Positions 3 through 24,060 of a stretch of 64,000 bases of DNA are shown here, piece after piece. The stretch comes from Pectobacterium atrosepticum (GTDB lineage Bacteria > Pseudomonadota > Gammaproteobacteria > Enterobacterales > Enterobacteriaceae): positions 2,542,001-2,606,000 of the forward strand of contig CP036163.1 of assembly GCA_019056595.1 (NCBI GenBank), read 5' to 3'. Below the pieces are notes generated by a model. That model was not told the origin of the DNA. It did not search any database and saw only the letters and a program-made list of their open reading frames with translations. Numbering within the stretch: the stretch's first letter is position 1; every line of letters starts with the position of its first letter. The translations under genes and the position numbers were made by a program.

Positions 3-3000
3 CTAGTTAGGCGGCATAACGGCTTTCACCTGTGGCACCGTGACAGCCAGACCTGGCGTGCGTTTACCGTCAGGCAGGATGACCAGCTATTGTTGTCGGC
101 CATCACTGACAACCATTTCAACCGAATCGATTTTATCCGCGACCCCAAAGGCTACCTGCGCAAGGTGCAGCACAGCGACGGCATCGAGCTGCTGCTGGTA
201 TGGCAAGGGGAATTTCTCCGCCAGGTGCAACGTATCGACGGCGGGCAGAAAACCGTGCTGGCCGAATACCGGCAGGATGAACAAGGGAGACTGATCGAGG
301 CCGATGCGGCGCATGCCTATCACCTGTTCTACGAGTACGATAACCACAACCGCTTGGCGCGCTGGCACGACAACGACCAGACCTGGGCACAGTATGAATA
401 TGACCATCAGGGGTGCTGCATTTACACCACCTGCGCCGACGGCTACCTGACCGCCAACTTCGAGTATCTGGCAGACCGCGTGGTGATGACAGACGGGCTG
501 GGACAACGCCATGAATATGGCTTTAATGACCTGTACCTGATGACATGGGAGAAATCCCCGCTCGGCCATATCACCCGCTTTGAGTATGACGATGTCGGTA
601 ATCTGCTACGGGAAATCTCCCCTGCGGGCCGGATGGTGGAATTTGCCTATCTGGGCGACAGCGGGCTGGTCAGTACCTTCACCGATGGCAGTGGCCATCA
701 ATGGCATTACGACTATGACGACAGCGATCGCCTCACCAGTATCACCGACCCTCTCGGGCGCAACTGGGTCTGGCAGTACGACACGAAGGGCAATCCGCAA
801 AGCCTGACCGGGCCGGACAACAGCGAAGTGCATTTTGCGTGGAACCGCTACGGCCTGCTGACCGAAGTCAGTGACCAAGGTGGACAGGTGCAGGCCAGTC
901 TGTTTTACGACCATCGACAGCGCCTGCTCAGTGCCACGGATGCGGAGTCCCGCACTCAACAACTACGCTACGACCAACAGGACAGACTGACCACCTGGAC
1001 ACGCCCGGACGGTTCCACCTATCGCTTGGGTTATCGCCGTGCCAGTTGGAAACTGCCGGAACAACTGCTACGCCCAGACGACAAGCAAGAACAGCGTCAA
1101 TACGACAAACACAACAACCTACTGAATTACACTGATGGCAACGGCGCGGTTTGGCGGCAAACCTATGGCCCATTCGATCTTCTGACGTCCCGTACCGATG
1201 CGGAAGGCCGCACCTGGCGTTACGAGTACGACAAAGAGAGCCAACAACTCGTCGCTGTTATCGCCCCAGATGGGAACCGCTGGCAATGGTGGTTGGATGC
1301 CGATGCACGGGTTATCCGCGAGCAGGATATGGCTGGCACCGAAACTCGCTACGGCTATGACGAGGATGGCCACTGCATTAGCATCCACAACGGCGAAGGC
1401 GAAACCCGCCACTTCCTGTACGACGGACGCGGGCTACTCATCAAAGAAACCGCACCGGACGATACGCTGCACTACCGCTACGATGGGGCAGGCCGACTTA
1501 CTGAAGTGACGTCTGCGACCAGCTATATCCAGTTGTCGTATGACGTACGAGACCGAGTGGTGCAGGAACGGAACAGCGGAACAGAAATCCGACGCCACTA
1601 TCAGGCAGAGTCTGACGCCGTTACCCGCAGCTTGTACTGGGAAGGCGAAGAGAGCAGCGCGGCACTCACCAGCACCTTCCGCTATAGTGCCACGGGTGAA
1701 CTGCGGCAGGTGCAGTTGCCGGATGACGCAGAGCTAACGTTGGCTCACGACGCCGCAGGACGAGAAGCCGCCCGAAATAGCAACGGCGGCTTTATGCAGC
1801 AGCGCGAATACGACGCCATGGGCTGGCTGACGCGCGAGATGAGTGGGCAGCAGCGGGATGGTCGTTTACAGGCCGAACAGAGCCGTGAACATTTGTATGA
1901 TGGCGCAGGCAACCTAACGGGCACCCGGCACAACCGCGAGGCCGAAGGCTACCGGTTGGATGCCAGCGGACGAGTGCTAACCGTCCTGAGCGGCGGCACA
2001 GGCCGTACCGTCAATACCGAAGAAGAATACCGCTACACCCGCACCGGCCTGCCGCAGGACGCCACAAGATTGACCGAGTGGCAAGCGAGCAGGCTTATTC
2101 AGCGTGACGATACCCACTATCAGTACGACAAAGCCGGACGGCTGATACGCAAACAGGTGGTACAGCCAGGCTACCGGCCGCAGGTTTGGCACTACCGCTG
2201 GGACAGTCGTAACCAGCTCAGAGTGGTGGACACGCCAACGGGTGAGCGCTGGTTCTACCGTTACGACCCATTCGGGCGACGCACCGGCAAACGCTGTGAC
2301 CAGAAAGCAGAAGACATCCGTTACCTCTGGGACGGCGACCAGATAGCTGAAGTGCGGCATTACCGCGAAAACCAGCTTATCAGCCGCCGCCACTGGGTAC
2401 ACAATGGCTGGGAGTTGCTGGTGCAACAGCGCCAGAATACCGACGGGAATTGGGAGACGGATTTTGTCACCAGCAGCCATAACGGCGAGCCGCAGGCTAT
2501 CTTTAATCAGGCTGGTGAGCTTCGCTGGCAGGCGCCGCGCACGAACTTATGGGGGCACCGGACTACAGATAATACTGAAAGTCTCGATCCGGGGCTGGCA
2601 TTTGCTGGGCAATACCGTGACGAAGAAAGTGGCTTATGCTATAACCGATTTCGGTATTATGATCCAAGCGGTGGTTGCTATATCTCACCTGACCCGATAG
2701 GGATAAGAGGTGGTCTTAACCTTTATGCGTATGTTAAAAACCCTGTAAATTGGATCGATCCGAAAGGGTTAGCTGGATGTAATATAGTCCATAGGGCGGT
2801 GACTCCTGAACAAGCAGCAAGTATCCGAGCAGGCAATGGAATATCAAGGCCGACTCCATATCATAGAACGACACCGACTCAGCATGTAGCAGGAGCACCG
2901 CACTCGCGTGATCCGTGGATATCAACAACTAGAAGTCAATCAACAGCAGAATACTTCGCCACTCATGGTGGAACCCAAGCAGCAAATCCAATTGTTAATA

Positions 3001-3164
3001 TAGATCTGTCTAAAATTCCGAGCGATAAGATTTTAGATGTATCAAACGCTCAAAAGGCTGCGGAACATTTGCAGACTCCATTCACCCGAAATGTAGCGGC
3101 AGCCCACCAAGAAGTATTAATCTTTGGAGAAATACCATCGGAAGCGATAATTGGATTTTTATAG
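3..3164 (+). CDS. Rhs family polymorphic toxin, 5' end outside window
   Basis: The reading frame is open to the window edge, so the gene starts upstream; 1053 residues are visible. The body is a run of YD/RHS repeats (many xxYxYDxxGxL units) that build the hollow Rhs cage. The core ends in the conserved DPIG (from 2691) and DPKGL (2757-2771) motifs, after which a variable toxin tip of about 129 residues follows. The tip has an HRAV motif, then WISTT followed by AEYFA, then QEVLIFGEIP near the end. This R - S-T - E order is typical of ADP-ribosyltransferase folds, so I infer an ART-type toxin; other fold families are possible. The tip is clearly more AT-rich than the core, the usual sign of exchange. 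Rhs proteins are commonly delivered by type VI secretion; no secretion gene lies in this window. The immunity gene follows directly. Confidence 0.93.
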   Translation, partial: LVRRHNGFHLWHRDSQTWRAFTVRQDDQLLLSAITDNHFNRIDFIRDPKGYLRKVQHSDGIELLLVWQGEFLRQVQRIDGGQKTVLAEYRQDEQGRLIEADAAHAYHLFYEYDNHNRLARWHDNDQTWAQYEYDHQGCCIYTTCADGYLTANFEYLADRVVMTDGLGQRHEYGFNDLYLMTWEKSPLGHITRFEYDDVGNLLREISPAGRMVEFAYLGDSGLVSTFTDGSGHQWHYDYDDSDRLTSITDPLGRNWVWQYDTKGNPQSLTGPDNSEVHFAWNRYGLLTEVSDQGGQVQASLFYDHRQRLLSATDAESRTQQLRYDQQDRLTTWTRPDGSTYRLGYRRASWKLPEQLLRPDDKQEQRQYDKHNNLLNYTDGNGAVWRQTYGPFDLLTSRTDAEGRTWRYEYDKESQQLVAVIAPDGNRWQWWLDADARVIREQDMAGTETRYGYDEDGHCISIHNGEGETRHFLYDGRGLLIKETAPDDTLHYRYDGAGRLTEVTSATSYIQLSYDVRDRVVQERNSGTEIRRHYQAESDAVTRSLYWEGEESSAALTSTFRYSATGELRQVQLPDDAELTLAHDAAGREAARNSNGGFMQQREYDAMGWLTREMSGQQRDGRLQAEQSREHLYDGAGNLTGTRHNREAEGYRLDASGRVLTVLSGGTGRTVNTEEEYRYTRTGLPQDATRLTEWQASRLIQRDDTHYQYDKAGRLIRKQVVQPGYRPQVWHYRWDSRNQLRVVDTPTGERWFYRYDPFGRRTGKRCDQKAEDIRYLWDGDQIAEVRHYRENQLISRRHWVHNGWELLVQQRQNTDGNWETDFVTSSHNGEPQAIFNQAGELRWQAPRTNLWGHRTTDNTESLDPGLAFAGQYRDEESGLCYNRFRYYDPSGGCYISPDPIGIRGGLNLYAYVKNPVNWIDPKGLAGCNIVHRAVTPEQAASIRAGNGISRPTPYHRTTPTQHVAGAPHSRDPWISTTRSQSTAEYFATHGGTQAANPIVNIDLSKIPSDKILDVSNAQKAAEHLQTPFTRNVAAAHQEVLIFGEIPSEAIIGFL

Positions 3165-9832: not shown

Positions 9833-10348
9833 GCGGGAGGAGAGAGTAACTATGGTTACGTCCAGAATCCAGTCTGCTGGATCGATCCGTTTGGGTTGGC
9901 TGGGTGCTCAGCCACTTTAGGCAAAAATATGATGGAAAAGATGGGACTTCCTCGGTCAACTACCTGGAAAGGGTATCAAGCACATCATGTTATTCCCAAA
10001 GAACTGGCAAATCATCCTGCATTGAAAAAAATTAACTATTATATTGATGATGCGTCAAACGGTATATTTTTAAGGACGAAAGATGATGCTATAAGCGCCA
10101 TGGCAAGACATCAAGGCAACCATAGTGGATATACTGAATCAATTAGGAGTGCTCTTGGTAAAATAGATCTTAATCAATCTGCCAGTTCCATTTCAAAACA
10201 AGTTTCAGATATACAGAACATTGCAAGGGGTGGATTAAGAAATGGTATACCAATTAGACCTCTTGACATGGATAAAGCCGGTGGTGCATTAGGCAACTCT
10301 AAAGTTAATGCTCTTTGGAATAATGTGTTTGGTAAAGGTGGCTGGTAA
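9818..10348 (+). pseudogene. displaced Rhs tip: AHH-type nuclease
   Basis: From 9818 the frame reads DQIGIAGG, NPVCWIDPFGLAG, then the tip. The tip contains YQAHHVIPKELANHPAL followed by DDASNGIFL and RHQGNHSGYTESI. This is the AHH module of the HNH/Endonuclease VII superfamily, with an AHH dyad and a later HQGNH block that supplies metal-binding/catalytic residues. There is no Rhs core. The immunity gene overlaps its stop by one base (TAATG at 10346-10350), indicating translational coupling in the ancestral gene. Confidence 0.8.
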
Positions 10349-10869
10349 TGAATGACAAATTTATAGTTGAACCTATAGAGTTTGCATTTACAAAAGGACT
10401 CTTCAAGGGATTGTGTGATGTTTCATTTAATGATGTAGTAATCATTAAAAATATTGATGATGCTATCGAGTTTGCTTTCGAACAAAACCTGCCATCCAAC
10501 TATAAAGTTTGGAATGATATAATTGAGAGTTATCGTGAAGAATTAAGAGAACACACTAACTTTCAGAATGCGTTAGATTTTATAAATAATAAGTTGGAAT
10601 TTTTTCAGCATCAAAACTCATCCCTTCACCTTGAATACAGAAAGAAAAAAATAAAAAAATCAAATAGTAAGCATGATGACTTTATTTTCTCAGAGTCAAA
10701 AGAGGATGCATATTTTGTCTTGTCCACCATAGCAATTAACAGATATCTGAATAACTTTATTGATGATGGTTTTCTTGAGAGATTATTCAGTATTTATAAA
10801 AGTGGTGGATGGCCATGTGGTATGAAACGTGATTCTATTATTGTTTTCGATCCAGCAGTACTCATGTAA
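10348..10869 (+). CDS. putative immunity protein for the AHH nuclease tip
   Basis: This 173-residue AT-rich gene starts in the TAATG overlap with the toxin tip. I recognise no family. The product has mixed strands and helices, a lysine-rich patch (KKKIKKSNSK) and a C-terminal GGWPCGMK motif. The immunity role is inferred from the overlap and order. With no core-bearing toxin in front, its promoter is unclear and it may be expressed from read-through. Confidence 0.65.
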   Translation: MNDKFIVEPIEFAFTKGLFKGLCDVSFNDVVIIKNIDDAIEFAFEQNLPSNYKVWNDIIESYREELREHTNFQNALDFINNKLEFFQHQNSSLHLEYRKKKIKKSNSKHDDFIFSESKEDAYFVLSTIAINRYLNNFIDDGFLERLFSIYKSGGWPCGMKRDSIIVFDPAVLM

Positions 10870-11433: not shown

Positions 11434-12177
11434 TCAAGCCTGATGCAGCGCCTGACTGACAGCTTGCCGTTGCTCCAGTAACGCTGGGCTGGTGCGATCT
11501 CGAGGATAAGTCAGATTTACCGGTAGAATTGCACTAATCCGGCCGGGCCGGGGTGACATGACTACCACTCTGTCAGCCAGAAAAACGGCCTCTTCCACAT
11601 CATGCGTCACCAGCAAGATCGTCAGATCCGTTTGTCGGCGAATATCTGCCAGACGTTCCTGCAACTGCTGTTTGGTCAGCGCATCAAGCGCGCCAAAAGG
11701 TTCATCCAGCAAGAGAATACGTGGCGTCGACACCAGCCCACGGGCGATCGCCACACGCTGTGCCATCCCACCCGACAGCTGATGCGGCCATGCATCGGCA
11801 AAGCCTTCCAGCCCCATCATCTGGAGATAGTGTGCAATTCGCTGCGCAACTTCCGTAGGGGAAAGATTGAGATTGAGCATACCGAGGCGAATATTGTCCG
11901 TCACGGTGAGCCACGGAAACAGACGCGGCTCCTGAAACACCAGACTGACCTCGTCGGGAATGCCGTGAACAGGCCGATCGCCAATCAGAATACGTCCGCG
12001 TCGGGTAGTATCAATCCCAGCAGCCAAACGCAGCAGCGTCGATTTACCACAGCCGCTAGCACCGATGACCGCAACCAGCTCGCCAGCATGCAACGACAGG
12101 TCGATGTCCTGTAACACCGTCAGCGGTGCGCCGTTGACAGTAAAATACTTGGTAATATGCTGAAAATGCAGGGACAT
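11434..12177 (-). CDS. ABC transporter ATP-binding protein, NitT/TauT (SsuB/AtsC-like)
   Basis: The 247-residue ATPase has a Walker A GASGCGKSTLLR, a Q-loop (VFQEPRLFPW), the signature LSGGMAQRVAIARGL, a Walker B ILLLDEPFGALDAL and an H-loop LLVTHDVEEA. It would energise import through the permease encoded just upstream. I chose ATG 12177 because GGAGA (12182-12186) precedes it at a good distance. A start at 12198 would overlap the permease stop (ATGA) but lacks a ribosome-binding site. It is the last gene of the tonB-exbB-exbD-permease-ATPase operon. The specificity class NitT/TauT covers sulfonates, taurine, nitrate and sulfate esters. Confidence 0.9.
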   Translation of the reverse strand: MSLHFQHITKYFTVNGAPLTVLQDIDLSLHAGELVAVIGASGCGKSTLLRLAAGIDTTRRGRILIGDRPVHGIPDEVSLVFQEPRLFPWLTVTDNIRLGMLNLNLSPTEVAQRIAHYLQMMGLEGFADAWPHQLSGGMAQRVAIARGLVSTPRILLLDEPFGALDALTKQQLQERLADIRRQTDLTILLVTHDVEEAVFLADRVVVMSPRPGRISAILPVNLTYPRDRTSPALLEQRQAVSQALHQA

Positions 12178-12194
12178 AGATTCTCCGTTATCCG

Positions 12195-13826
12195 TCATGC
12201 AAAGCGCCAGCGGGTCAGCCGCCGTTCAGACAAAGTAATCAACCGGGAAAATAGTGCGGCCACCACCGCAATCAGCACTACACCGGCCATGATGCGATCG
12301 GACTCAAGCAGCTGTTGTGCACGAATCATCATGCCACCCAGCCCCTCTCCCGACGGCATGAAATACTCTGCGCCAATCGCCCCCGTCCACGCATGCATCA
12401 ACGCGAGTCGCAGGCCTGAAAACAGCGGCGGTAACACGCTGGGCAATATCAGCGTGCGGAGCGTCTGCATCGGCGTCAGTCGCAGAACCTGCGCAACCTC
12501 TAATAGCGCAGGAGGAAGCTGGGCGATTCCCTGACGGGTTGCCAACATCACAGGAAAGAATGCCGCCACAGCGATAAATACGATTTTGGCGCTCTCCCCT
12601 AAACCGAACCAGGCCGTGATCAGCGGCAGCCAGGCGAATAGTGCCACACAGCGCAGTGCGGACAACGCCGGATTAAACAACTTGTCAGCGATGCGCCAGC
12701 CGCCGAGCAACGCACCGACCAGCACACCGATTGCGCTTCCCAGCATAAAGCCCTGTAGCGCACGCAGCAGACTGGCATTGAGATCGGCCAGCAGCCCACC
12801 CTGAATCAACCCCGACCACAGTGCCTCAATCACATCACTCGGCGCGGGAAGAAAAGCCACGTTCACCCACTCGCGCGTGCTGCTAATCTGCCACAGTGCA
12901 ATCAACATCAATGGCGCTAGCCAAGGTGTCAGCGACAGACTCGGCAGCGCATAGCTCAGGCTATCTCGCCCCAGCACCGGCGCAGGCCAGTGAATCCAGC
13001 GACGCTCCAGCTTCAGCAGCACGCGTTCCCCGGTAAACCCTAGTATTCCAATGATCAAAATGCAGACGAACACCAGATCCAACATGAACAGCTGGCGGCT
13101 TTGTACCAACAGATAACCCAGCCCTTCGCTGGAAGCCAACAGCTCAACCGCAATCAACGCCACCCATCCGGTGGAAAACGCCAGCCGAACGCCCGTCATC
13201 ACATAAGGCAACATGGCAGGCAGAATCAGGTAACGCAGGAAGGCGACGGGCGGTAAACGCAGGCTACGCACCATTTCATGCAGCTTTTGTGGCGTCTGTT
13301 GAATACCGGCGCAGGTGTAAAGCGTCACTGGCACCGTTACCGATTTCACCAACACCACCAGCTTCAGCGCTTCCCCGATCCCCAGTGACAGCATCAAAAG
13401 CGGGATCCAAGCTAACGTAGGAATCTGCGCGATGACGGTAAATAGCGGCATAAACAGCGCATTCAAGCGTCTGTTCAGACCAAATAGACTGCCCAAAACC
13501 AGACCCAGCGCAATGCCGCCACTAAAACCAATCACAAGCCGCATCAGGCTGATGGGTAACTGGTGAATTAGCTCTTCGGGGATAAAAGCCCGTGCGCTGC
13601 CAATCACCGTCAGCGGCGAAGGCAGGATCTGTTCAGACATCCACCCGTATCGACTGGCAAGCCACCAACTGGCAAGTACCAGCAGCGGCACGACGAGCGA
13701 TACGATCAGTGAAATGACCAGCGCAGAATATCCCGCCGACAGCGTGGCTGCGCTCAGATAAGTATCAGGGGCGGAGCGTATCCGCAGAGGATATTTGGGC
13801 ATCATGATCGTCAGTATCCACAGCAT
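12195..13826 (-). CDS. double-length ABC transporter permease
   Basis: This 543-residue membrane protein holds two complete SsuC/TauC-like permease units, roughly residues 40-275 and 285-540. Each has five or six hydrophobic segments and its own cytoplasmic coupling loop (EMVRSLRLPPVAFLRYLILP in the first, EVAQVLRLTPMQTLRTLILP in the second). Most NitT/TauT permeases are single units that dimerise, so this is a fused pair. The Pseudomonas sulfate-ester permease AtsB is, as I recall, also long. Its start overlaps the exbD stop (TAATG at 13826), showing translational coupling. It should form the inner-membrane channel with the ATPase and the periplasmic binding protein at 16258. Confidence 0.88.
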   Translation of the reverse strand: MLWILTIMMPKYPLRIRSAPDTYLSAATLSAGYSALVISLIVSLVVPLLVLASWWLASRYGWMSEQILPSPLTVIGSARAFIPEELIHQLPISLMRLVIGFSGGIALGLVLGSLFGLNRRLNALFMPLFTVIAQIPTLAWIPLLMLSLGIGEALKLVVLVKSVTVPVTLYTCAGIQQTPQKLHEMVRSLRLPPVAFLRYLILPAMLPYVMTGVRLAFSTGWVALIAVELLASSEGLGYLLVQSRQLFMLDLVFVCILIIGILGFTGERVLLKLERRWIHWPAPVLGRDSLSYALPSLSLTPWLAPLMLIALWQISSTREWVNVAFLPAPSDVIEALWSGLIQGGLLADLNASLLRALQGFMLGSAIGVLVGALLGGWRIADKLFNPALSALRCVALFAWLPLITAWFGLGESAKIVFIAVAAFFPVMLATRQGIAQLPPALLEVAQVLRLTPMQTLRTLILPSVLPPLFSGLRLALMHAWTGAIGAEYFMPSGEGLGGMMIRAQQLLESDRIMAGVVLIAVVAALFSRLITLSERRLTRWRFA

Positions 13827-14227
13827 TATTTTTGCGTCAGCAGGGATAGGCGGGTAATCCCTGCCTGCTCGACATCGGCCAGCAGCGCGGCGACATCACC
13901 GTAATTTGCCTCTTTATCCGCCTGCACCTGCACCACCAAATCTGCATTACCCGCTTTCGCCTGCTGCAAGCGCGGCACCAGTTGTTCCCGCGCCAGGTTT
14001 TCTTTATTGATGAAGACACGCCGCTCACTATCAATGCTAATAACAACCGGATCGGTGCGATCGACCGGGGACACCGCCGCCGTTTTTGGTAGCTGAATAG
14101 GAATGGCATTGGTCAGCATCGGCGCGGTCACGATAAACACCACCAGCAATACCAGCATGACATCCACGAGCGGCGTGATATTCATTTCACTCATCACGTC
14201 GTCGTCATTACGCGAGGTAAACGCCAT
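13826..14227 (-). CDS. ExbD-like TonB energiser subunit
   Basis: The 133-residue protein has a short cytoplasmic N terminus ending in MNITPLVDVMLVLLVVFIV. This is the single transmembrane helix with the conserved proton-pathway aspartate. A periplasmic domain typical of ExbD follows. It works with ExbB to convert proton flow into TonB motion. It lies one base after exbB and is coupled to the permease gene. It is a second, locus-specific energiser set; most enterobacteria also carry a housekeeping exbBD elsewhere. Confidence 0.9.
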   Translation of the reverse strand: MAFTSRNDDDVMSEMNITPLVDVMLVLLVVFIVTAPMLTNAIPIQLPKTAAVSPVDRTDPVVISIDSERRVFINKENLAREQLVPRLQQAKAGNADLVVQVQADKEANYGDVAALLADVEQAGITRLSLLTQK

Positions 14228-14228
14228 C

Positions 14229-14951
14229 TCAGACCACCTCTCTCAGGTTCTTCACGGAGAAAGCGGCAGACGATGGCTCCACACTGGTATGAAGTGCGCT
14301 GACATGAAAATCGTGCGCCTGCATCACGCTGTAGACATCATGAGCGAAGTCATCCATATCCGCGACGGCCAGCTTGAGACGACGCAAAAAGTAGTTGTAG
14401 ATCAGCACTGCAGGAACCGCGACAGCGATCCCGACGCCGGTAGCTATCAGCGCATTACCAATCGGCCCTGCGACAGTGTCGAGACTGGCAGAACCAGAAA
14501 GCCCGATCTCCTGCAACGCTGCCATAATGCCCCAAACAGTACCAAACAGGCCGATAAACGGCGACGTACTGCCAATGCTGGCCAACACCGCCAGTCCGCC
14601 TTCCAGCGAACGACGTTCGCGTTGAATCTGCTGTTGCAGCGCGCGCTCAACCCGATCGGGCAGATGAATATTAAGAGCAAGCTGCCCGCTAATCCGCTCC
14701 GGCGCTTTGACCGCAGCCAGCGCCAGATTGGCGAGTGAACCGGGCTGCTTTGCGCTGGTTTCTGGCGTCTGGCTGACGTCATCTTGCTGCCAGAAAGCCG
14801 CGCGAAAGTGTCGATCGCGCCGCTGCGCACGCCCATATTGGACGAGCTTCAGTAGCCCCAGCCCCCAAGTGACGAGAGAAAACAGCAACAGCAACAGAAT
14901 CACAGCGCCTTCCGCAGAAAAGAGTTCAATGTGTCCAAGCGTCATAACCAA
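14229..14951 (-). CDS. ExbB/TolQ/MotA-family proton channel protein
   Basis: The 240-residue product has an N-terminal membrane helix (EGAVILLLLLFSLVTWGLGL), a cytoplasmic segment and the family block SIGSTSPFIGLFGTVWGIM. The third segment carries IGNALIATGVGIAVAVPAVLIYN. These are the pore-lining helices of ExbB. It partners with the ExbD and TonB of this operon. It starts 4 bases after the tonB stop, so the three genes are co-transcribed. Confidence 0.92.
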   Translation of the reverse strand: MVMTLGHIELFSAEGAVILLLLLFSLVTWGLGLLKLVQYGRAQRRDRHFRAAFWQQDDVSQTPETSAKQPGSLANLALAAVKAPERISGQLALNIHLPDRVERALQQQIQRERRSLEGGLAVLASIGSTSPFIGLFGTVWGIMAALQEIGLSGSASLDTVAGPIGNALIATGVGIAVAVPAVLIYNYFLRRLKLAVADMDDFAHDVYSVMQAHDFHVSALHTSVEPSSAAFSVKNLREVV

Positions 14952-14955
14952 TACC

Positions 14956-15819
14956 TCATGAGTTCAGCGAAAAATCGACAGGTACAACGACCCAGCCGCT
15001 AACCGGCTGACTGCCGCGACGCGCCGGAACAAAAGACCAGCGCAGCACTGTATCTCTGGCGGCCTCATCAAGTGACGGATAGCCGCTTGATTGATGAATA
15101 CGAATGGTTTGCACCTTGCCGTCGGCACGTACCTGCACGTTCAACAGTACGGTGCCTTCATAACCACGGCTAATCGCTACGTCGGGATAAGACGGTGCGG
15201 GATTATGCAGGTAGTCAGCATTAGCGAGCGGCGGCGTCAACGGCGCATCAACGGGCAGTGCTACAGCCTTTTGTGCTACCGGAGCGGGCGTTATCGGTGC
15301 CGATGCCGATGCGGTTTCCTTCTGTGGTTGCGGCGTCGGTTTAGGCGCGGTAGTGCTCTTTTTCACCGGCGTCTTTTTCGGTACAGGCTCAGGCTTTTTC
15401 TCTGGCACTTTTTTTTCCGGCTCTGGCGGCAACAGCGCGTTGTCATCCACCGGCTTGTCCACAGGAGGTGGAGCGAGTTCCGGCGGAGGCGTCACCACTT
15501 CAGGCTCCAAAGGTTCAGCAGGCTGGGCTTGTTGCACTGGCTCTGCCACCATAGACACCAACTCAACGCTGACAGGTTGTGGCCGCGCAGGCACCGTCAC
15601 CGGCGGTGTCGATGTACTGTTGAGTAACGCCAGCACCGCCGCATGCAATAGCAACGTCGCTATTACGGCCAGCCAGCGCTCCGGCCGGGATGAGCGCGTC
15701 GTATTCAGATGCGATAATCGCTGCTGCACCGAACCATTTACCCGGCTAGCATGCGGTGTTGGTTCCGGTGAATAAGGACGGGGTATCGGCGCGGCTCCCG
15801 CATAGAGTAATTCCGTCAT
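14956..15819 (-). CDS. TonB-like energy transducer
   Basis: The 287-residue protein has a cytoplasmic N terminus, a single membrane anchor (WLAVIATLLLHAAVLALL, containing the conserved histidine of TonB) and a long Pro/Glu/Lys-rich linker. It ends in a C-terminal TonB domain (NPAPSYPDVAISRGYEGTV, then GYPSLDEAARDTVLRWSFVP). It would link ExbBD to the receptor encoded on the divergent arm at 17352. It is the first gene of the minus-strand operon, so its promoter should lie in 15820-16257. Confidence 0.93.
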   Translation of the reverse strand: MTELLYAGAAPIPRPYSPEPTPHASRVNGSVQQRLSHLNTTRSSRPERWLAVIATLLLHAAVLALLNSTSTPPVTVPARPQPVSVELVSMVAEPVQQAQPAEPLEPEVVTPPPELAPPPVDKPVDDNALLPPEPEKKVPEKKPEPVPKKTPVKKSTTAPKPTPQPQKETASASAPITPAPVAQKAVALPVDAPLTPPLANADYLHNPAPSYPDVAISRGYEGTVLLNVQVRADGKVQTIRIHQSSGYPSLDEAARDTVLRWSFVPARRGSQPVSGWVVVPVDFSLNS

Positions 15820-16257
15820 GATGGGTTGCTCCTGACAATATATCTTTATCGCTCTATTTCGCGTTGCAGGTGTTTATGTCGCCTGAAATAGCGTTTTGAT
15901 AATCGATTCTTCCCGACTATTTAATAAAGTCAACGTATGTATCTGCATATCGATATTCATTTCATTCTTTATTTCTTTAATAAGACGATAGCGTTAATAA
16001 TCGACACTCAGACTAAAGGTAAAAATTGCCGTCAGGCTAATGCATAGTTGGAATAGTTTTTTTTCGTTCGTTGCATATCGATGAAATAGATGATGAATGC
16101 TGACTTAGCTATTTACTAAAAATAATAATGCTTTTTTTGTATTAGTCAGTTTATTGCCAAGCCTTTAAATGTGGTGCTGCACACGATATGACGCCGTTCG
16201 AAACAGGCGCAATAACATAATTTCTATTCATCGATTTCATTACTGGCGGGTAAAATA
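15820..16257. promoter_or_regulatory. AT-rich divergent promoter region of the import locus
   Basis: This 438-bp spacer separates the tonB arm from the binding-protein arm and must hold both promoters. It is distinctly AT-rich. I see no clear Fur, KdgR or consensus CRP box. A TGTG-N6-CACA inverted repeat at 16170-16183 could be an operator. The LysR protein at 23131 is the obvious candidate regulator. Confidence 0.55.
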
Positions 16258-17265
16258 ATGACGACATCAGGACGAAAATGGTTAGTGACTAGCTTATTGG
16301 CAATGGGGATGGCCTGGTCAGGTATCGCATCAGCAATCACTGAAATTCGTATTGCCGCGCCAGACATTGGTGCGGGCACAAAACCCAGCGGCGGCGGCCT
16401 GCTCGACGTCATCCACAGCCAGAAGCTGCTAGAGCGCGAATTTAGCAAAGATGGAATCAGCGTGCGTTGGACGTTCATCAAAGGCGCCGGCCCCGTCATT
16501 AACGAAGCGTTTGGCAACCATCAGGTTGACGTGGCCTATCTGGGCGATTTAGCCAGCATTATCGGCCGTTCACGCGGTCTGGATACCCGTGTGATCGCCG
16601 TGGCATCACGCGGCATCAATCACTATCTGGCGGTGGCGAAAGGCTCCGGCATTGAGAAAATTGCCGACCTGAAAGGTAAACGCATCGGGATCTTTCGTGG
16701 AACAGCGGGTGAACTTTCCTTCGTCAGCGCGCTTGATTCGCAAGGCCTGAAGCCCTCTGACGTTAAGCTGATCAATCTCGATTTCGCGGCGGCCAGCGCA
16801 GCGTTAGCTGCCGGACAGATTGATGCCACCTGGGGCGGCAGCAATACGCTTTCACTACGGGATAAAGGGCTGGCAGACATTCCACTATCCAGCCGCGATT
16901 TGAACGGTGCGGGTCAACTCAGCGGCTTCCTGTTAGTCGATGAGAAATTTGCCAAAGGCAACGAGGATATTCTGCGGCGCTTAGTCAAGGTTCAGCGAGA
17001 AGCGGCAAACTGGGCTAGCGACAATAAAAATAAAGATGAATTTATTCAACTCTTAGCTACCCAATCGGGCTACCCGGAAAATATATTACGCGTCGAATGG
17101 GATACATTACCGCCATTAACGGAGCGTCTTTCGCCCGAATTGGATCCTGCCTTCGTAGAAAAATTAAAACGTGCCGTCACGTTGGCCTATGAATCGCGTC
17201 TTATTCGACAACCTTTTGATGTCGATAAATGGCTGGATGATTCTTATCTAAAAGCAACGCAGTAA
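16258..17265 (+). CDS. periplasmic substrate-binding protein, NitT/TauT (SsuA/AtsR-like)
   Basis: The 335-residue protein has a signal peptide (basic start, hydrophobic core LLAMGMAWSGIASA, cleavage near residue 26). The mature part has the SsuA/TauA pattern: FIKGAGPVINEAFGNHQVDV, YLGDLASIIGRSRGLDTRVI, DLKGKRIGIFRGTAGELSFV, then AALAAGQIDATWGG. It would capture the ligand in the periplasm and hand it to the fused permease. It opens the plus-strand arm, 86 bp before the receptor gene. The ligand class suggested by the family is a sulfonate, sulfate ester or other small anion. Confidence 0.88.
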   Translation: MTTSGRKWLVTSLLAMGMAWSGIASAITEIRIAAPDIGAGTKPSGGGLLDVIHSQKLLEREFSKDGISVRWTFIKGAGPVINEAFGNHQVDVAYLGDLASIIGRSRGLDTRVIAVASRGINHYLAVAKGSGIEKIADLKGKRIGIFRGTAGELSFVSALDSQGLKPSDVKLINLDFAAASAALAAGQIDATWGGSNTLSLRDKGLADIPLSSRDLNGAGQLSGFLLVDEKFAKGNEDILRRLVKVQREAANWASDNKNKDEFIQLLATQSGYPENILRVEWDTLPPLTERLSPELDPAFVEKLKRAVTLAYESRLIRQPFDVDKWLDDSYLKATQ

Positions 17266-17351
17266 TTTATTTCCCCAAAAAAATTATAACCCGCGTATTG
17301 CCGTGAAATTCACGGCAATTGGCAGCCTATTGACGACATTCGGAAGAAGCT

Positions 17352-19637
17352 ATGTATTTTAAAAAACACCAGCAGTATTTAAAAAAACACCAACGCAAAA
17401 TAACGTCGGGCATTTTAATGAGCTGCGTCTTAACGCTTCCCGCTATAGCGCGAGCAGCCGATCCGCAAATCACAACGAATAACTCATCACAGCGGATCCC
17501 CCCCGGCACCGAGGCAACAACCACCGCCCCCGTCCAGTTGAAACGCGTGAAAGTAAACGCTCAGCGTGCGACTGTTCAACCGCCAACCACACTGGCATCA
17601 GTGATCGACGGCAAAACGCTCGAAGAAGAGCGGATATACCGCTTTGAAGATCTGTCACAGCTCGTGACGGGGCTGGATGTCGATACCGTCGATGTGATGG
17701 ATACCACAGTGACTATCCGTGGGATTGGCGACGGCGGTGAGAGCGGCACCAACATCGGTATGCCGGGCAGCGTGGGGCTGTTTGTCGATGGCGTCTACTT
17801 GTCCCGCCCCGGCGTTATCTCTAACGATTTGCTGGATATCGACAGCACCCGAGTGTTGAAAGGCCCGCAGGGTGCCGCCTACGGCTTTAATACCACCGGC
17901 GGCGCGATTGATATTCGCACCCGCAAACCGACCTTCACACCCGAATATTCATTGGAACAATCATTCGGACAGCGTGGCTATCTGCAATCCAAACTGATGG
18001 CATCCGGGCCACTCAGCGACCACTGGGCAGGCCGCATTAACCTGTCACGTACCGAACGCGGTGGAAACGTCACGAATATCGAAAACGGCCATAAGCTCGG
18101 GGGCAGCACCAATAACGGCGTGCGCGGCCAACTGCTTTATCAGCCGAATGACAGCTTTAGCCTCAGAATCACCGGCGACTACAGCGATGCCACCCAGCGT
18201 CCCGTTTCAGTTCTGGTGAGTGCAACCGACGCATTCCGCACCCGCGCACAACAGACTGGCCTCAAGGTCGTCGGCGGTCGTCAGGTCGCCATGGATGACG
18301 AGAACGTCATTCGTGTCGCACAAGGCGGCGGTTCGGTAGAGGCCAACTGGAGACTGCAGAGCGGTTATAGCGTCAACTCCCTCTCCTCACTGCGCTATTT
18401 CCGCGTATTGCCCAGCACGGCGGATAACTGGAATATCCCGCTCTATAACGATAGCGGTGCCAATGTACGCGATCGCGTCTGGTCGCAAAGCTTTTGGCTG
18501 GATTCGCCCAAAGGCAATAAGGTTGATTATTCACTGGGCGTCGATTACTGGGGAGAGAACCTCGATACCGAGGCAAACAGTCGCTACTACAACGACAATC
18601 GCGTGCGGACGTGGGTAGGGAATGGCTATCAGGGCATTAACGTTCAGCGCTTTGGTACGTTAGATGACACCGTCTATTCCGCGTATGGCCGCGGAACCTG
18701 GCACGCAGCCGATAAGCTGGACGTCATTGTAGGTCTGCGGCAGACCTACGAGAAAAAAGAGGGAACGTTTATCCGCAGGAACCGCGCGACCTTTGACTCT
18801 GGGCCACTCTCACAAACCAACCACCTGCCTTCGGGTTCCATCAGCCTGAACTGGTTTGCGGCACCCAACGTCACCCCTTACCTAACGCTGGGCTACGGGG
18901 AAAAATCCGGCGGCCTGAACGTGTCATCCGGGGCCGCAAGACAACTGGGGATCGACTCGCTGTACGTCGATCCAGAGAAAACCCGCTCGGCGGAGCTGGG
19001 GGTCAAAACCCACTGGCTACAGCGCAAAGTGGAATGGAATACCGCGCTGTTCTGGAGCGTCGTCGAAGATTTCCAGAATAACGCCTATGACGAAGAAACG
19101 GATACCAGCTACCTGATTAACGCAGGGAAATTCCGCTCACGCGGCGGGGAATCTCAGTTGACGCTGCGCCCGCTTGACGGCCTAAGCATCAGTCTGGCTG
19201 GTACGCTGTTGGATACCAGTTACCTGAACTTCCCCAACGCCCGCTGCCCGGCAGAAATCTCCGCCGTCTCGTGCGATATGTCAGGAAAACGCGTCTTCAA
19301 ATCACCCACGCTGAGCTACAACACACGCGTGCGTTATCAATGGGATACGCCAAATAACCTACAAGCCTCGGTTTCCGGTCAATGGTCATGGCGGAGCTGG
19401 GCCTACGGTACGCTCGATGATTCCGAGAGCAACCGTATTCCGGCCTATGGCGTCCTGAACCTGTCTAGTGGCCTGAGCGGCAAACAAGGCGATAACCGCT
19501 GGAACGTGTCGCTGTGGGTAAAAAACGCGTTGGATAAAGACTACTACCGCTCCGTCAGAGGCTCCAGTGCAACAACGGGTGTGATTGGCGAACCGCGCAT
19601 GGTCGGAATATCGGTCGGTTACGACTTCAAGGGCTAA
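17352..19637 (+). CDS. TonB-dependent outer-membrane receptor
   Basis: The 761-residue product has a signal peptide ending near ALPAIARA-like residues (LTLPAIARAADPQ). A plug domain follows (DGKTLEEERIYRFEDLSQLV, GSVGLFVDGVYLSRPG, TRVLKGPQGAAYGFNTTGGA), then a 22-strand beta-barrel ending in the terminal aromatic motif VGISVGYDFKG. A GGAAGAAG ribosome-binding site precedes ATG 17352. It should import a substrate too large or scarce for porins, powered by the TonB/ExbBD of the same locus. The plug resembles receptors from environmental proteobacteria more than iron-siderophore receptors, and no Fur box is visible, so iron uptake is not the best guess. Confidence 0.92.
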   Translation: MYFKKHQQYLKKHQRKITSGILMSCVLTLPAIARAADPQITTNNSSQRIPPGTEATTTAPVQLKRVKVNAQRATVQPPTTLASVIDGKTLEEERIYRFEDLSQLVTGLDVDTVDVMDTTVTIRGIGDGGESGTNIGMPGSVGLFVDGVYLSRPGVISNDLLDIDSTRVLKGPQGAAYGFNTTGGAIDIRTRKPTFTPEYSLEQSFGQRGYLQSKLMASGPLSDHWAGRINLSRTERGGNVTNIENGHKLGGSTNNGVRGQLLYQPNDSFSLRITGDYSDATQRPVSVLVSATDAFRTRAQQTGLKVVGGRQVAMDDENVIRVAQGGGSVEANWRLQSGYSVNSLSSLRYFRVLPSTADNWNIPLYNDSGANVRDRVWSQSFWLDSPKGNKVDYSLGVDYWGENLDTEANSRYYNDNRVRTWVGNGYQGINVQRFGTLDDTVYSAYGRGTWHAADKLDVIVGLRQTYEKKEGTFIRRNRATFDSGPLSQTNHLPSGSISLNWFAAPNVTPYLTLGYGEKSGGLNVSSGAARQLGIDSLYVDPEKTRSAELGVKTHWLQRKVEWNTALFWSVVEDFQNNAYDEETDTSYLINAGKFRSRGGESQLTLRPLDGLSISLAGTLLDTSYLNFPNARCPAEISAVSCDMSGKRVFKSPTLSYNTRVRYQWDTPNNLQASVSGQWSWRSWAYGTLDDSESNRIPAYGVLNLSSGLSGKQGDNRWNVSLWVKNALDKDYYRSVRGSSATTGVIGEPRMVGISVGYDFKG

Positions 19638-19641
19638 TGTC

Positions 19642-22416
19642 ATGAACAAGATGGCTTACTCACGCCGACGCTTCCTGCGCGACAGCACGCTGCTGGCGCT
19701 GTCGGCACCGTTCTGGAAACCTGCGATCGCCGCACCTCTCGCTACGGCCTCCAACCGTGCAGGCGACACCGTACCGCAGGTGAGCCTGCGCTGGCTAGAC
19801 GGACAGGTGCCTCGCGCCTTCAGTGGCGTCACCTGGGGCGTACCCTGGCCGCAGGGGACAGTGCGCAGCGATAGCGACTTCCAGTTACACGGCACCCAGC
19901 AGCAGGTTTACGACCTGCAAAGCTGGCCGTTGGCACGTTGGCCGGACGGCTCGATTAAATGGTCGGCACATGCTCTGAGCGGCGTCACGCCGCCGGCAGA
20001 CAAACTCCTTCTGCGGCCGACAGCCAAAGCGGGCGTACCATCGGGTGTCGGAATGGTCAGCGAAAACGATCACGGCTGGACCGTCGATACCGGCCATATT
20101 CGCTGCGTAATTCCACGTTCGGGCTCCCGTCTGATCGAAGAAGTCTGGCGAGATGAGCGGCTGGCGTTAACCAACGGCAGACTGGTGTTGCGCATGCAGC
20201 GAGGGGCGGAGACGGGCAGTACGCTGACGCAGGACACGTATCAGGGCGTGATCGACACGGTCACGGTGGAGCAAAGCGGGCCACAACGTACGGTGATTGC
20301 GCTACGCGGCACGCATCACACACAGCAGCAGGGGGTTACGCGCATCCCCTTTGTTATCCGGCTGTATAACTATGCGAATACCGACTCGCTGCGCGTGGTA
20401 CACACCCTGATCTATGACAACGATGACGATCGGCTCAGCCTGAAAGGACTTGGGCTGGCGTTCGACATTCCACTACAGGGGGAACTGCACGATCGGCACG
20501 TCCGCTTCGTCTCGGATCAGGGCGGGCTCTTTCGTGAAGCGGTACGCGGCCTAAGCGGGCTACGTCGCGATCCCGGTACAGCCGTTATCGCAGCACAGCT
20601 GGCCGGGCAAGCCACGCCGCCAATAGCAGATTTTTCACCGGAAGTCGGCAAACGGCTGGATTACATCCCTGCGTTTGGCAGCTACCGCCTGACTCAGCAT
20701 CATCCCGATGGTTTTCAGATCCACAAACGCACTGCGGCCGGACAGGGTTGGCTACTCTCCGCCACGGGCGAGCGGGCGGCAGGCGTCGGCTATCTCGGCA
20801 CGCCGAAAGGCGGCGTGGCGTTCGGCCTGCGCAATTTCTGGCAGAGTTACCCCGCCTGTCTGGAAATCGACAATGCCCACACCGACGTGGCGACCGTCAC
20901 GCTGTGGCTGTGGTCACCGTGGGCAGAGCCGATGGATATGCGCTTTTATCATGACGGCTTGGGTCAGGATACCCATGACAAACAGCGCGAAGGACTGGCG
21001 ATCACCTATGAAGATTACGAGCCGGGCTTCGGCTCGGCAGTCGGCGTAGCACGCACCAGCGAACTGTTTATCGATATTCTGCCCGCGACGCCCGACGCGG
21101 AAAATCTGGTGAATCGAGCACGACGTATGCAGCAACCGCCGCTGCTGGTGGCAGATGCACAGGATTTGTACCGCGCACAAGCGTTTGGATCGATGTGGGC
21201 CCCCGCCTCTGCCGCAACACCGGCCCGAGCCAGTCTGGAGAAGCAGTTGGGGGCGTACTTTGACGCCTACCAGCAGGAGGTCGAGCAGCGAAAATGGTAT
21301 GGCTTCTGGGATTTCGGTGACGTCATGCATACCTATGACAGTGACCGTCACGTCTGGCGTTATGACGTGGGCGGCTATGCGTGGGATAACTCGGAGCTGA
21401 GTACCGATCTGTGGCTCTGGTATGACTTCCTGCACAGCGGACGCGCCGAGGTGTTTCGTATGGCGGAAGCCATGACACGCCACACCGGTGAGGTCGACGT
21501 GCACCATCTGGGACGCTTTAGTCCGTTAGGATCCCGGCACAATGTGCGCCACTGGGGCGACAGCGCCAAACAGTTGCGTATTTCTACCGTCGCCAATCGC
21601 CGTTTTCTCTACTACCTCACCGCCGATGAACGCATCGGTGAATTGATGGATGAACAAGTTGAGGCGCTGCGCACGCTAAGCGCGGTGCTGCCCGGCCGCA
21701 AAATCGGCCAGACGCATCCCGATAACCCAAACCATATCAGTCTGGGTTTCGGCACCGACTGGGGTGCTGTCGCTGCCGCGTGGCTCACCGCCTGGGAACG
21801 CCACGGCGATCCAACGATGCGCGAACGCTTGCTCAACAGTATGCAGACGCTGGCCGCTCAGCCGCACGGTTTTTTCACTGGCAACGCCGCCATCGATCCC
21901 GATACCGGCAGATTTCTTTCCGCGCCAGCGGATCAGGTGGAAATCTCACACCTCAGCGCCGTATTTGGTCTGACAGAAATCTGTAGCGAACTGATTGAAG
22001 TGCTGCCCGATCCCGCCTTTAGACGCGCGTGGCTCGACTACTGTCGGCTGTATAACGATCCGGTCGCGTTAAGCGCTGCCGTGGGTAAAACGGTGAAAAA
22101 GCTCAATCTGGCTCAAGGCCATGCCCGACTGACTGCCTTTGCCGCACGACAACTGAATGACCGCACGCTGGCGCAGCGCGCGTGGGCAGAATTTACCGCA
22201 GGCAGCGGCGGCATTGCCAACCCGACGCTCATGCAGCGACGCCTGACGCCACCTGAAGTGCTCTCCCCGATCAACGAGCCGGTGATTGACTCCACCATTG
22301 ATAAACATTCCGGCAGCACTACGGCAACCAATCTAGCGACCAACGCCGTTGCCCAGTGGGGATTAACCGCCATCGCCCTACTGGCCTTGCTGGATGACAT
22401 TTCTCCTTCTTCTTAA
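19642..22416 (+). CDS. Tat-exported exo-rhamnogalacturonan-lyase-like protein (PcRGLX type)
   Basis: The 924-residue protein starts MNKMAYSRRRFLRDS, a twin-arginine signal, so it is folded in the cytoplasm and exported. The mature N terminus (VSLRWLDGQVPRAFSGVTWG, then VPWPQGTV) resembles the first domain of the PcRGLX exo-rhamnogalacturonan lyase family. A beta-rich middle and a C-terminal alpha/alpha-toroid-like part (WYGFWDFGDVMHTYD, GRFSPLGSRHNVRHWGD) follow. The family assignment is from memory of that domain pattern. ATG 19642 is 4 bases after the receptor stop, with AGGG upstream. Likely role: periplasmic breakdown of a polysaccharide fragment taken up by the receptor. The exact glycan is uncertain. 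Confidence 0.75.
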   Translation: MNKMAYSRRRFLRDSTLLALSAPFWKPAIAAPLATASNRAGDTVPQVSLRWLDGQVPRAFSGVTWGVPWPQGTVRSDSDFQLHGTQQQVYDLQSWPLARWPDGSIKWSAHALSGVTPPADKLLLRPTAKAGVPSGVGMVSENDHGWTVDTGHIRCVIPRSGSRLIEEVWRDERLALTNGRLVLRMQRGAETGSTLTQDTYQGVIDTVTVEQSGPQRTVIALRGTHHTQQQGVTRIPFVIRLYNYANTDSLRVVHTLIYDNDDDRLSLKGLGLAFDIPLQGELHDRHVRFVSDQGGLFREAVRGLSGLRRDPGTAVIAAQLAGQATPPIADFSPEVGKRLDYIPAFGSYRLTQHHPDGFQIHKRTAAGQGWLLSATGERAAGVGYLGTPKGGVAFGLRNFWQSYPACLEIDNAHTDVATVTLWLWSPWAEPMDMRFYHDGLGQDTHDKQREGLAITYEDYEPGFGSAVGVARTSELFIDILPATPDAENLVNRARRMQQPPLLVADAQDLYRAQAFGSMWAPASAATPARASLEKQLGAYFDAYQQEVEQRKWYGFWDFGDVMHTYDSDRHVWRYDVGGYAWDNSELSTDLWLWYDFLHSGRAEVFRMAEAMTRHTGEVDVHHLGRFSPLGSRHNVRHWGDSAKQLRISTVANRRFLYYLTADERIGELMDEQVEALRTLSAVLPGRKIGQTHPDNPNHISLGFGTDWGAVAAAWLTAWERHGDPTMRERLLNSMQTLAAQPHGFFTGNAAIDPDTGRFLSAPADQVEISHLSAVFGLTEICSELIEVLPDPAFRRAWLDYCRLYNDPVALSAAVGKTVKKLNLAQGHARLTAFAARQLNDRTLAQRAWAEFTAGSGGIANPTLMQRRLTPPEVLSPINEPVIDSTIDKHSGSTTATNLATNAVAQWGLTAIALLALLDDISPSS

Positions 22417-22451
22417 TGCCGTCACCCGACGGTACGTTACAGGACACCATC

Positions 22452-23144
22452 ATGATTGACCCTAGCTGTACTGAAAACACGCTCATCCTCTCGCCGCAGG
22501 TAAACGGAACACGTGACATTACAGATTCCCCGCACCGTTCGGCGCTAATCTGGTCCACGGATTCCACCGGTCAGCCGCTACAGTGGCAGGTGGAGCAGGA
22601 AGACCCTGACCGCGCGGCGATCCAGACCACGCCAGAGCGTCTGACGTTGGAGAGCGCCGCTGGGCTAACGCTCTGGCTGGATGCCCCGCTATCAGGCACC
22701 TATCGCATCGCCTTTACGCGGGAAATTCTGGTCGCGGATCGCCCCTATGACCGCGTGTCAGACCTGAATCAGTTCTGGGCTGCACGCGACCTGCACCACC
22801 CGAACCTATTTACCCGGCACGGTAAGCTCAACGAATATGACAGCCTGAACTTGTACTATGTCGGTATGGGCGGTAACTGGAACAGCACCACGCGCTTTCG
22901 TTATTACGATGGCCACGGCGAGCGTCTGCTGCTTGGCGAATACACTGACGCCGCACATCTGCTACGCCCTAATCATCGCTATCGCATCGTGATTGAAGTG
23001 GATCGGCGGGAAACACGTTTCTGGGTCGATGATGTGCTCTATTTCCACGCGAGCTACCCGAATACGCCTGCTCCGGGTTATTTCGGCTTTAGGACGGTAT
23101 TTTCACGTCAGGAAATCAGCGAGTTCAGCATTACTCCGCTGTAA
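22452..23144 (+). CDS. DUF6250-like protein
   Basis: The 230-residue product shows DLNQFWAARDLHHPNLF, then YYVGMGGNWNSTTRFRYYDG and RETRFWVDDVLYFHASYP. This is a beta-sandwich pattern that I associate with DUF6250, a domain often found with rhamnogalacturonan-lyase-like enzymes. ATG 22452 has AGGA (22441-22444) at 7 bases; an upstream in-frame ATG at 22416 overlaps the lyase stop (TAATG) and would add 12 residues. No signal peptide is visible in either form, so it may act in the cytoplasm, unlike the Tat-exported lyase. The catalytic role is unknown. The gene tail overlaps the convergent LysR gene by 14 bp. Confidence 0.7.
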   Translation: MIDPSCTENTLILSPQVNGTRDITDSPHRSALIWSTDSTGQPLQWQVEQEDPDRAAIQTTPERLTLESAAGLTLWLDAPLSGTYRIAFTREILVADRPYDRVSDLNQFWAARDLHHPNLFTRHGKLNEYDSLNLYYVGMGGNWNSTTRFRYYDGHGERLLLGEYTDAAHLLRPNHRYRIVIEVDRRETRFWVDDVLYFHASYPNTPAPGYFGFRTVFSRQEISEFSITPL

Positions 23145-24060
23145 GCGACGCTGGCGCGCCGTGCAGGTCACCATCGACCTGCACGAAGGTGTCGATCAGC
23201 TTACGCGCCAGCAGAGACAGACGGGCGTCCGCCAGATAAATGATGCCGTAATGGGTATAAAATTCGTCGGTGTTGTCGTCCAAACCCGCAATCTTCAGCA
23301 TATGAATACCGTGCCGATCGGGCTCGTTGAAATGATTGGTCGTCCCGATAGCATCCGAATGGCGCACTACATCCAGCAGACTGTAGCCATTTTCACACTC
23401 AATATTGGTGCGAATATCCAGCTTGCCGCTCAGTTGCACCAGTGCGCGATGCAGGTTGGGTGGGCGGATCGTTGCCGCCAGCGGATAGGAAAAGAATTGC
23501 TCAACGGTAATCTCTTCCTGCACCGCTAACGGGTGCCCGCTGCGGCAGCAGAATCCCCAACGATGCTGGCTCAGCGGCTGAACCCGATAGCGGGTATCGA
23601 ATTCAAAGTTGCGCATATCCGCCACAATGAAATCAAGCTCTTCGGCCATGAGTCGATGCCCTAGCGCCTGCCAATTATCAACGCGAAAGACCATTCGCAC
23701 CTTGGGATACAGTTGGGAGAAAGCCCCGATCACCTGCGGCATCAGCCAGGCGGCGGGGGCTGGGCCGCAGCCAAAATTCACTTCGCCCGCCTCTTTCTCA
23801 TTGAACTGCTGAATATCGTTAAACAGATCGTGCGTCTGATTAATCAGGCGACGGGCGTGATCCAGTACTACCAGCCCTTTAGGCGTCGGCTCCAGTTGGT
23901 TCATACGGTCAATCAGGCGGGTGCCAACAGTCTGCTCCAGCGACTGAATACTGCGGCTGAAAGCGGATTGAGATAACTTCATCGCCTGTGCCGCCGACGT
24001 AAAATTGCGATGCTCAATCAGAGCAATAAAGTGGCGCAGTTGGCGAAGATCGATATTCAT
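23131..24060 (-). CDS. LysR-family transcriptional regulator
   Basis: The 309-residue protein has an N-terminal LysR helix-turn-helix (LRHFIALIEHRNFTSAAQAM, LSQSAFSRSIQSLEQTVGTR). A periplasmic-binding-protein-like effector domain follows (VNFGCGPAPAAWLMPQVIGA and so on). It is convergent with the DUF6250-like gene and the only regulator in the locus, so I infer that it senses the imported compound. In the Pseudomonas sulfate-ester system the regulator SftR is also LysR-type. Its own promoter lies in the unannotated stretch 24061-24290. Confidence 0.88.
   Translation of the reverse strand: MNIDLRQLRHFIALIEHRNFTSAAQAMKLSQSAFSRSIQSLEQTVGTRLIDRMNQLEPTPKGLVVLDHARRLINQTHDLFNDIQQFNEKEAGEVNFGCGPAPAAWLMPQVIGAFSQLYPKVRMVFRVDNWQALGHRLMAEELDFIVADMRNFEFDTRYRVQPLSQHRWGFCCRSGHPLAVQEEITVEQFFSYPLAATIRPPNLHRALVQLSGKLDIRTNIECENGYSLLDVVRHSDAIGTTNHFNEPDRHGIHMLKIAGLDDNTDEFYTHYGIIYLADARLSLLARKLIDTFVQVDGDLHGAPASLTAE

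Follow-up and report, generated by a model that had tools for sequence, protein, structure and literature searches.

A 64,000-nucleotide stretch of Pectobacterium atrosepticum DNA (GenBank assembly GCA_019056595.1, contig CP036163.1, positions 2,542,001 to 2,606,000; hereafter the window) carries, at positions 11434 to 24060, a ten-gene locus in which transport genes for both membranes stand together with a lyase gene of the PcRGLX type. Comparative analyses suggest that this locus is probably a pectin-directed import system, conserved and chimeric. All ten genes named in the original prediction are present, open and intact in an open reading frame (ORF) check of the window, and each belongs to the family proposed, as assigned with Pfam and NCBIfam. 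The features are as follows, with ABC denoting ATP-binding cassette and Tat the twin-arginine export route.

11434..12198, minus strand: ABC ATPase of the NitT/TauT (SsuB/TauB-like) type (PF00005, E 3.6e-33)
12195..13826, minus strand: fused ABC permease, AtsB-like, 543 amino acids, with two PF00528 (BPD_transp_1) stretches
13826..14227, minus strand: ExbD (PF02472, E 1.9e-30)
14229..14951, minus strand: ExbB (PF01618, E 7.7e-34)
14956..15819, minus strand: TonB (TonB_C, PF03544, E 6.4e-23)
15820..16257, no strand: divergent intergenic region, a candidate LysR operator from an alignment of 12 loci
16258..17265, plus strand: periplasmic binding protein of the SsuA/NMT1 type (PF09084)
17352..19637, plus strand: TonB-dependent receptor of a lyase-linked clade (PF07715, plug, and PF00593, barrel)
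19642..22416, plus strand: PcRGLX/PL26-like lyase with three PcRGLX domains and a Tat signal motif
22416..23144, plus strand: DUF6250 protein (E 2.7e-61), a predicted YesU-fold beta-sandwich without signal peptide
23131..24060, minus strand: LysR-type regulator (PF00126 and PF03466)

The minus-strand genes run tonB-exbB-exbD-permease-ATPase and are tightly packed; by their coordinates, neighbours either overlap (by 4 or 1 bp) or are separated by 1 or 4 bp. The binding protein, receptor, lyase and DUF6250 genes follow one another on the plus strand, where the last two overlap by 1 bp, and the LysR gene lies convergent at the end; the spacing looks operonic. The lyase most likely starts at position 19642, followed by the twin-arginine motif SRRRFLRD. 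It contains the domains PF19501, PF21345 and PF21346 (E down to 1.5e-172) and, over query residues 47-914, matches PDB 5xq3 (E 1.2e-221), its only credible match in the PDB and the structure of PcRGLX, the exo-rhamnogalacturonan lyase of Penicillium in polysaccharide lyase family 26 (PL26). Both the three-domain architecture and the full-length similarity typical of PcRGLX/PL26 were found. The binding protein matches the SsuA structure PDB 3uif (E 1.8e-37) and scores 150.8 bits against TIGR01728, under the cut-off of 163.5.

Several relatives of the lyase lie close to genes for rhamnogalacturonan degradation. Among the matches listed, 80 lyase loci came from named genomes (L027-L106), 11 of them from Enterobacterales; relatives also occur in Actinomycetota, Bacteroidota, Verrucomicrobiota and Bacillota. 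Of the 80 loci, 16 match one or more of the pectin or rhamnogalacturonan genes used as queries, in some cases weakly. In Solimonas, Paucibacter and a Comamonadaceae metagenome-assembled genome, RhiN-like (60-66%) and RhiT-like (39-51%) genes fall within the 10-kb flanks of the lyase, and three Cellvibrionaceae lyase loci have a RhiN-like gene (65-67%) without RhiT. Three Paraburkholderia loci have DUF6250 next to a PL4 rhamnogalacturonan lyase, identified by Pfam in L045 and L048 and by tblastn in L046. The claim that the enzymes point to plant cell-wall glycans is borne out by these PL4 neighbours and RhiN/RhiT relatives, and the glycan indicated is rhamnogalacturonan I. The same genome encodes, elsewhere, a PL4 RhiE-like lyase (L115), RhiT-RhiN-like genes (L113) and a sugar-type ABC cluster with GH105 (L114). 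The description of the locus as self-contained goes too far in one respect: a RhiN-like hydrolase and a RhiE-like secreted lyase are encoded elsewhere.

The locus behaves as a conserved unit, beyond chance, because the ten genes occur in unchanged order in nine Pectobacterium loci and a diverged Enterobacter sp. 10-1 (L027-L034, L049 and L035) and because dN/dS relative to three Pectobacterium loci is 0.02-0.21 across the ten genes. The closest lyases among the matches listed are those of P. peruviense (95%) and P. zantedeschiae (94%), whereas the Enterobacter genes are 49-72% identical to those of the window; in L049 the lyase and permease are in pieces. A fragmented copy, in which ExbD was not seen, is present in Symbiopectobacterium (L085). 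The lyase was found in 21 of 25 genomes of the genus, including the one analysed here. In the four lyase-free genomes, searches returned no PcRGLX_3rd domain, no receptor of the window type (a search without a positive control of its own) and no permease of the window type (with two positive controls at 93-94%); three of these genomes retain only a 48-49% permease paralog and one has neither. Across sampled genomes the parts are rare: DUF6250 was found in 2 of 394, the lyase in 5 of 369 (a strong match only in its own genome, the others at E 4e-5 to 8e-4), PcRGLX_3rd in 3 of 299, and the permease at E 1e-60 in 3 of 394 and 2 of 229.

The two halves of the locus appear to differ in origin. In a tree of the window lyase and 28 of the 80 listed loci, picked to span phyla, a clade of eight (support 100/99) unites the window with P. 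fontis, Enterobacter, two Duganella, two Paraburkholderia and one Rhodocyclaceae, and a related receptor lies directly upstream of the lyase in all eight. Similarly, a receptor tree of 12 rows places the window with Burkholderiales lyase-linked receptors (99/99). The window receptor is 42-44% identical to lyase-linked receptors, 37.7% to the receptor of genome G542 and 28.8% to an ABC-linked Acinetobacter receptor. The matching tree splits and the upstream position of the receptor argue that receptor and lyase travelled together; they share a history and, outside Enterobacterales, are paired without this ABC. In contrast, the transport genes group with locus L117 of G542 in trees of ExbB-ExbD (6 rows, 100/99), the permease (8 rows, 93/90) and the binding protein (8 rows, 94/94). 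L117 holds a receptor, TonB, ExbBD, ABC and binding protein together with a serine hydrolase and no lyase, and PcRGLX_3rd was not found in the G542 genome; it is a second use of the same transport block. The permease is 51% identical to that of G542 and 48% to a paralog in its own genome, where the ATPase paralog is 59% identical. This paralogous ABC, with its binding protein and its own LysR, adjoins an arylsulfate sulfotransferase (AssT; L021, G000:C2:4627000-4646000). That sulfotransferase has a C-terminal thioredoxin domain, and the layout is repeated in two related genomes (L022 and L023). On an Acinetobacter plasmid, a fused permease, ATPase, binding protein and receptor lie beside a flavin-dependent oxidoreductase. 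From these relationships, the locus appears to be a chimera of a pectin-directed module and a transporter with sulfur-linked relatives. The joining of the two halves had been called unusual; this holds for the ABC alone, and not for the receptor and lyase, since in the trees the receptor goes with the lyase rather than with the ABC half.

Structure prediction gives the DUF6250 protein a beta-sandwich fold like that of B. subtilis YesU. A Pfam search matched DUF6250 and not DUF1961, the family of YesU; profile comparison of DUF6250 with a DUF1961 protein gave a probability of 2.5%, which is not credible, and a sequence search of the PDB found nothing. Therefore, the link to YesU is drawn from fold and genomic position. 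Near the PcRGLX-family lyases, DUF6250 occurs at 31 of the 80 listed loci, DUF1961 at 21 and both at 2, a pattern suggesting that the two largely replace each other and that a lectin-fold partner commonly accompanies lyases of this family. The lineage carrying this ABC is the only one in which DUF6250 is without a signal peptide; in the four Burkholderiales and Rhodocyclaceae loci with a full-length ORF (L045, L046, L048 and L084) its N-terminus is hydrophobic.

In the divergent region, GCTAATGC, ATAGTTT and TGCAT are identical in 12 of 12 aligned loci, Enterobacter and Symbiopectobacterium included. An AATGCAT core also precedes the gene for the AssT-linked binding protein in each of the three stretches shown, which fits the relatedness of the two LysR proteins (41% identity between the locus and the AssT locus). 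The Acinetobacter stretch and the trimmed L022 stretch yielded no such core; in L022 it falls inside an over-long permease ORF. Control of the locus by KdgR or CRP was considered and rejected, as sites matching their consensus sequences are at shuffle level, and the CRP-like TGTG-N6-CACA seen in the window is not conserved in L029-L033, L035, L049 or L085. The best Fur box candidate in the divergent region matches 12 of 19 positions, against a mean of 11.9 in 200 mononucleotide shuffles (P 0.64).

These observations can be assembled into an outer-membrane-to-cytoplasm route for rhamnogalacturonan-I backbone oligosaccharides, which we give an even chance as a whole. Extracellular cleavage, probably by the RhiE-like PL4 lyase whose gene lies elsewhere in the genome, would produce fragments that the receptor takes up, powered by its dedicated TonB-ExbB-ExbD. 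In the periplasm, the putatively Tat-exported lyase would act at one end of the fragments and trim them down to deltaGalA-Rha, an unsaturated disaccharide. This small acidic product would then be carried to the cytoplasm by the fused permease and ATPase with the SsuA-like binding protein; there a RhiN-like GH105 hydrolase, also encoded elsewhere, would split it, and the now-cytoplasmic YesU-like DUF6250 protein may bind or process it. LysR would control the divergent promoter in response to a presumed inducer. A rhamnogalacturonan-type ligand is likely for the receptor and lyase. Import of the lyase product by the ABC falls slightly short of an even chance, and this step is the most doubtful part of the route. 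More tentatively, a NitT/TauT-type ABC may have been recruited for the unsaturated rhamnogalacturonan disaccharide, and the lectin-fold DUF6250, partner of the lyase and interchangeable with YesU, may have moved to the cytoplasm after that recruitment; the recruited ABC would then make the locus a full machine dedicated to bringing pectin across both membranes of soft-rot bacteria. The original prediction had called for a substrate as yet undescribed; this is not supported, as ordinary rhamnogalacturonan-I oligosaccharides fit the lyase, receptor and DUF6250. Overall, the original observation is correct and its interpretation half so.

Several points weigh against this route. No queried gene is matched at 64 of the 80 listed lyase loci, including all 11 from Enterobacterales, and the locus itself has no rhamnogalacturonan gene besides the lyase and DUF6250. 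The RhiT-RhiN-like genes and sugar-type ABC cluster of the genome may make another importer redundant. Named members of this ABC family carry small anions or aromatics and are not known to carry disaccharides, and the ABC half is nearest to the lyase-free L117 block and to the AssT-linked ABC of its own genome; furthermore, the supports for the permease and binding-protein groupings are under the star threshold of the tool. The relocation of DUF6250 counts as a single evolutionary event, not eleven. DUF6250 is not a pure rhamnogalacturonan marker, because relatives adjoin sulfatase-like genes (L002/L026) and a chondroitinase-family lyase (L019). Finally, no KdgR site rises above shuffles in the divergent region.

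Of the alternatives, the one that survives best is that two independent functions share the locus: the receptor, lyase and DUF6250 would serve rhamnogalacturonan, with the product entering through RhiT, and the ABC would import a sulfate ester, sulfonate or aromatic acid from the same rotting plant tissue. The separate histories of the halves fit this arrangement, as do the AssT beside the ABC paralog, the SsuA-like binding protein and the RhiT-RhiN-like genes of the genome. However, the unit is kept and lost together, the binding protein, receptor and lyase are consecutive on one strand, the DUF6250 of this lineage carries no signal peptide, and none of the ten proteins is a sulfatase, AssT or dioxygenase by Pfam and NCBIfam. 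It is considered unlikely.

It is improbable that the lyase acts instead on another rhamnose-uronate polymer, such as arabinogalactan-protein or a bacterial glycan, that the system imports. The PcRGLX family is wide, and PcRGLX is the sole credible structural match, both of which leave room for such a substrate; yet the close relatives linked to a TonB-dependent receptor adjoin PL4, and more distant ones lie near RhiN/RhiT-like genes. Scavenging of sulfate esters or sulfonates by a system of the SftP/AtsRBC type, in which the lyase and DUF6250 would free a plant glycoside or ester to be imported for sulfur, is quite improbable. It would agree with the AssT-linked paralog and with the existing sftP, atsR and astB annotation (PMC4079955), but the receptor is nearer to lyase-linked receptors than to the ABC-linked ones of G542 and Acinetobacter, the lyase family has links to rhamnogalacturonan genes, and a sulfur-releasing enzyme is absent among the ten proteins. 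The statement that the window holds no sulfatase stands for the 20 of 81 mechanical ORFs of at least 120 amino acids covered by the Pfam scan, none of which is one. Iron uptake through a siderophore-type receptor with its own TonB-ExbB-ExbD was rejected as hardly credible: the receptor does match the siderophore receptor model TIGR01783 (134.3 bits), and the pesticin receptor is the one structure in the PDB that it matches at E 1e-10, but the cut-off of 223.5 is not reached, no Fur box exceeds shuffles and no siderophore gene is among the ten.

Upstream of the locus the window encodes an Rhs-repeat protein (90-3164); closer to it come an AHH-type nuclease-domain protein and then a small protein that belongs to no Pfam family (9896-10869). 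Mu-like prophage genes, including a Mu transposase, a Mu portal and tail-sheath proteins, occupy about 39188-60898.

If the pectin assignment is true, the locus would supply the receptor and periplasmic exo-lyase step missing from the Dickeya pathway accounts, as far as their available parts extend, in bacteria that are major crop-rotting organisms. It would also extend the NitT/TauT ABC family to a possible sugar substrate, and DUF6250 would gain a partner (the PcRGLX lyases), a fold (YesU) and a role open to testing. The most interesting question is the cargo of the ABC half. In a literature search in which long listings were covered in part, no paper linked the locus to rhamnogalacturonan, and none was found naming DUF6250 or PcRGLX; the term PL26 in the available part of PMC13306336 is a strain name, and PMC8942430 reportedly names the exo-rhamnogalacturonan lyase. 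The pectin assignment is apparently new, whereas the gene listing dates from 2014: in Ma et al. (PMC4079955), sftP, atsR, astB, exbB- and exbD-like and 'hypothetical' genes with near-consecutive identifiers in Dickeya dadantii 3937 are listed as predicted factors of host interaction and have partners in P. carotovorum WPP14. Judging from names and numbers, these are apparently the same locus, and the pectin assignment would correct their sulfate-ester annotation. This naming in soft-rot genomes, together with the paralog beside the arylsulfate sulfotransferase, supports the earlier view that the transporter half belongs with uptake systems for sulfate esters or sulfonates.

Compared with known systems, the lyase shares all three Pfam domains with PcRGLX, but it is bacterial, carries a Tat motif and lies inside an import locus, and its activity is a prediction. 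YesU (DUF1961) and YetA belong to the rhamnogalacturonan cluster of B. subtilis, and YetA is a member of the PcRGLX family, which fits the B. subtilis control match; that system is Gram-positive and has other importers, and its YesU is in a different Pfam family from DUF6250. SftP/AtsRBC/SftR is the sulfate-ester uptake system of Pseudomonas putida, and sftP and sftR are reportedly also present in the Pseudomonas sp. UW4 genome (PMC3596284). The Pectobacterium locus has the same set of parts (receptor, SsuA-like binding protein, fused permease, ATPase and LysR). In contrast, the locus adds its own TonB-ExbB-ExbD, a lyase and DUF6250, its receptor falls in the lyase clade, and a sulfatase or AtsK-type enzyme is absent from its ten proteins. 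PMC3870299 and PMC8386352 describe the rhamnogalacturonan pathway of these bacteria as RhiE, RhiT and RhiN. The proposed polymer and product are the same as in the account from Dickeya/Erwinia chrysanthemi (PMC3870299), and rhiN/rhiT relatives occur near lyase homologs; that account, in its available part, has RhiT as importer and includes no outer-membrane receptor or periplasmic exo-lyase. The Burkholderiales and Rhodocyclaceae loci with a TonB-dependent receptor, PcRGLX and DUF6250 (L037, L038, L045, L046, L048 and L084) fall in the same receptor and lyase clades (L046 was outside both trees). DUF6250 is present in 6 of 6, PL4 in three and TonB-ExbBD in two (L048 and L084). These loci are without the fused-permease ABC of Pectobacterium, although other NitT-type ABC genes lie close by in L048 and L084 (permease 33 and 32%).
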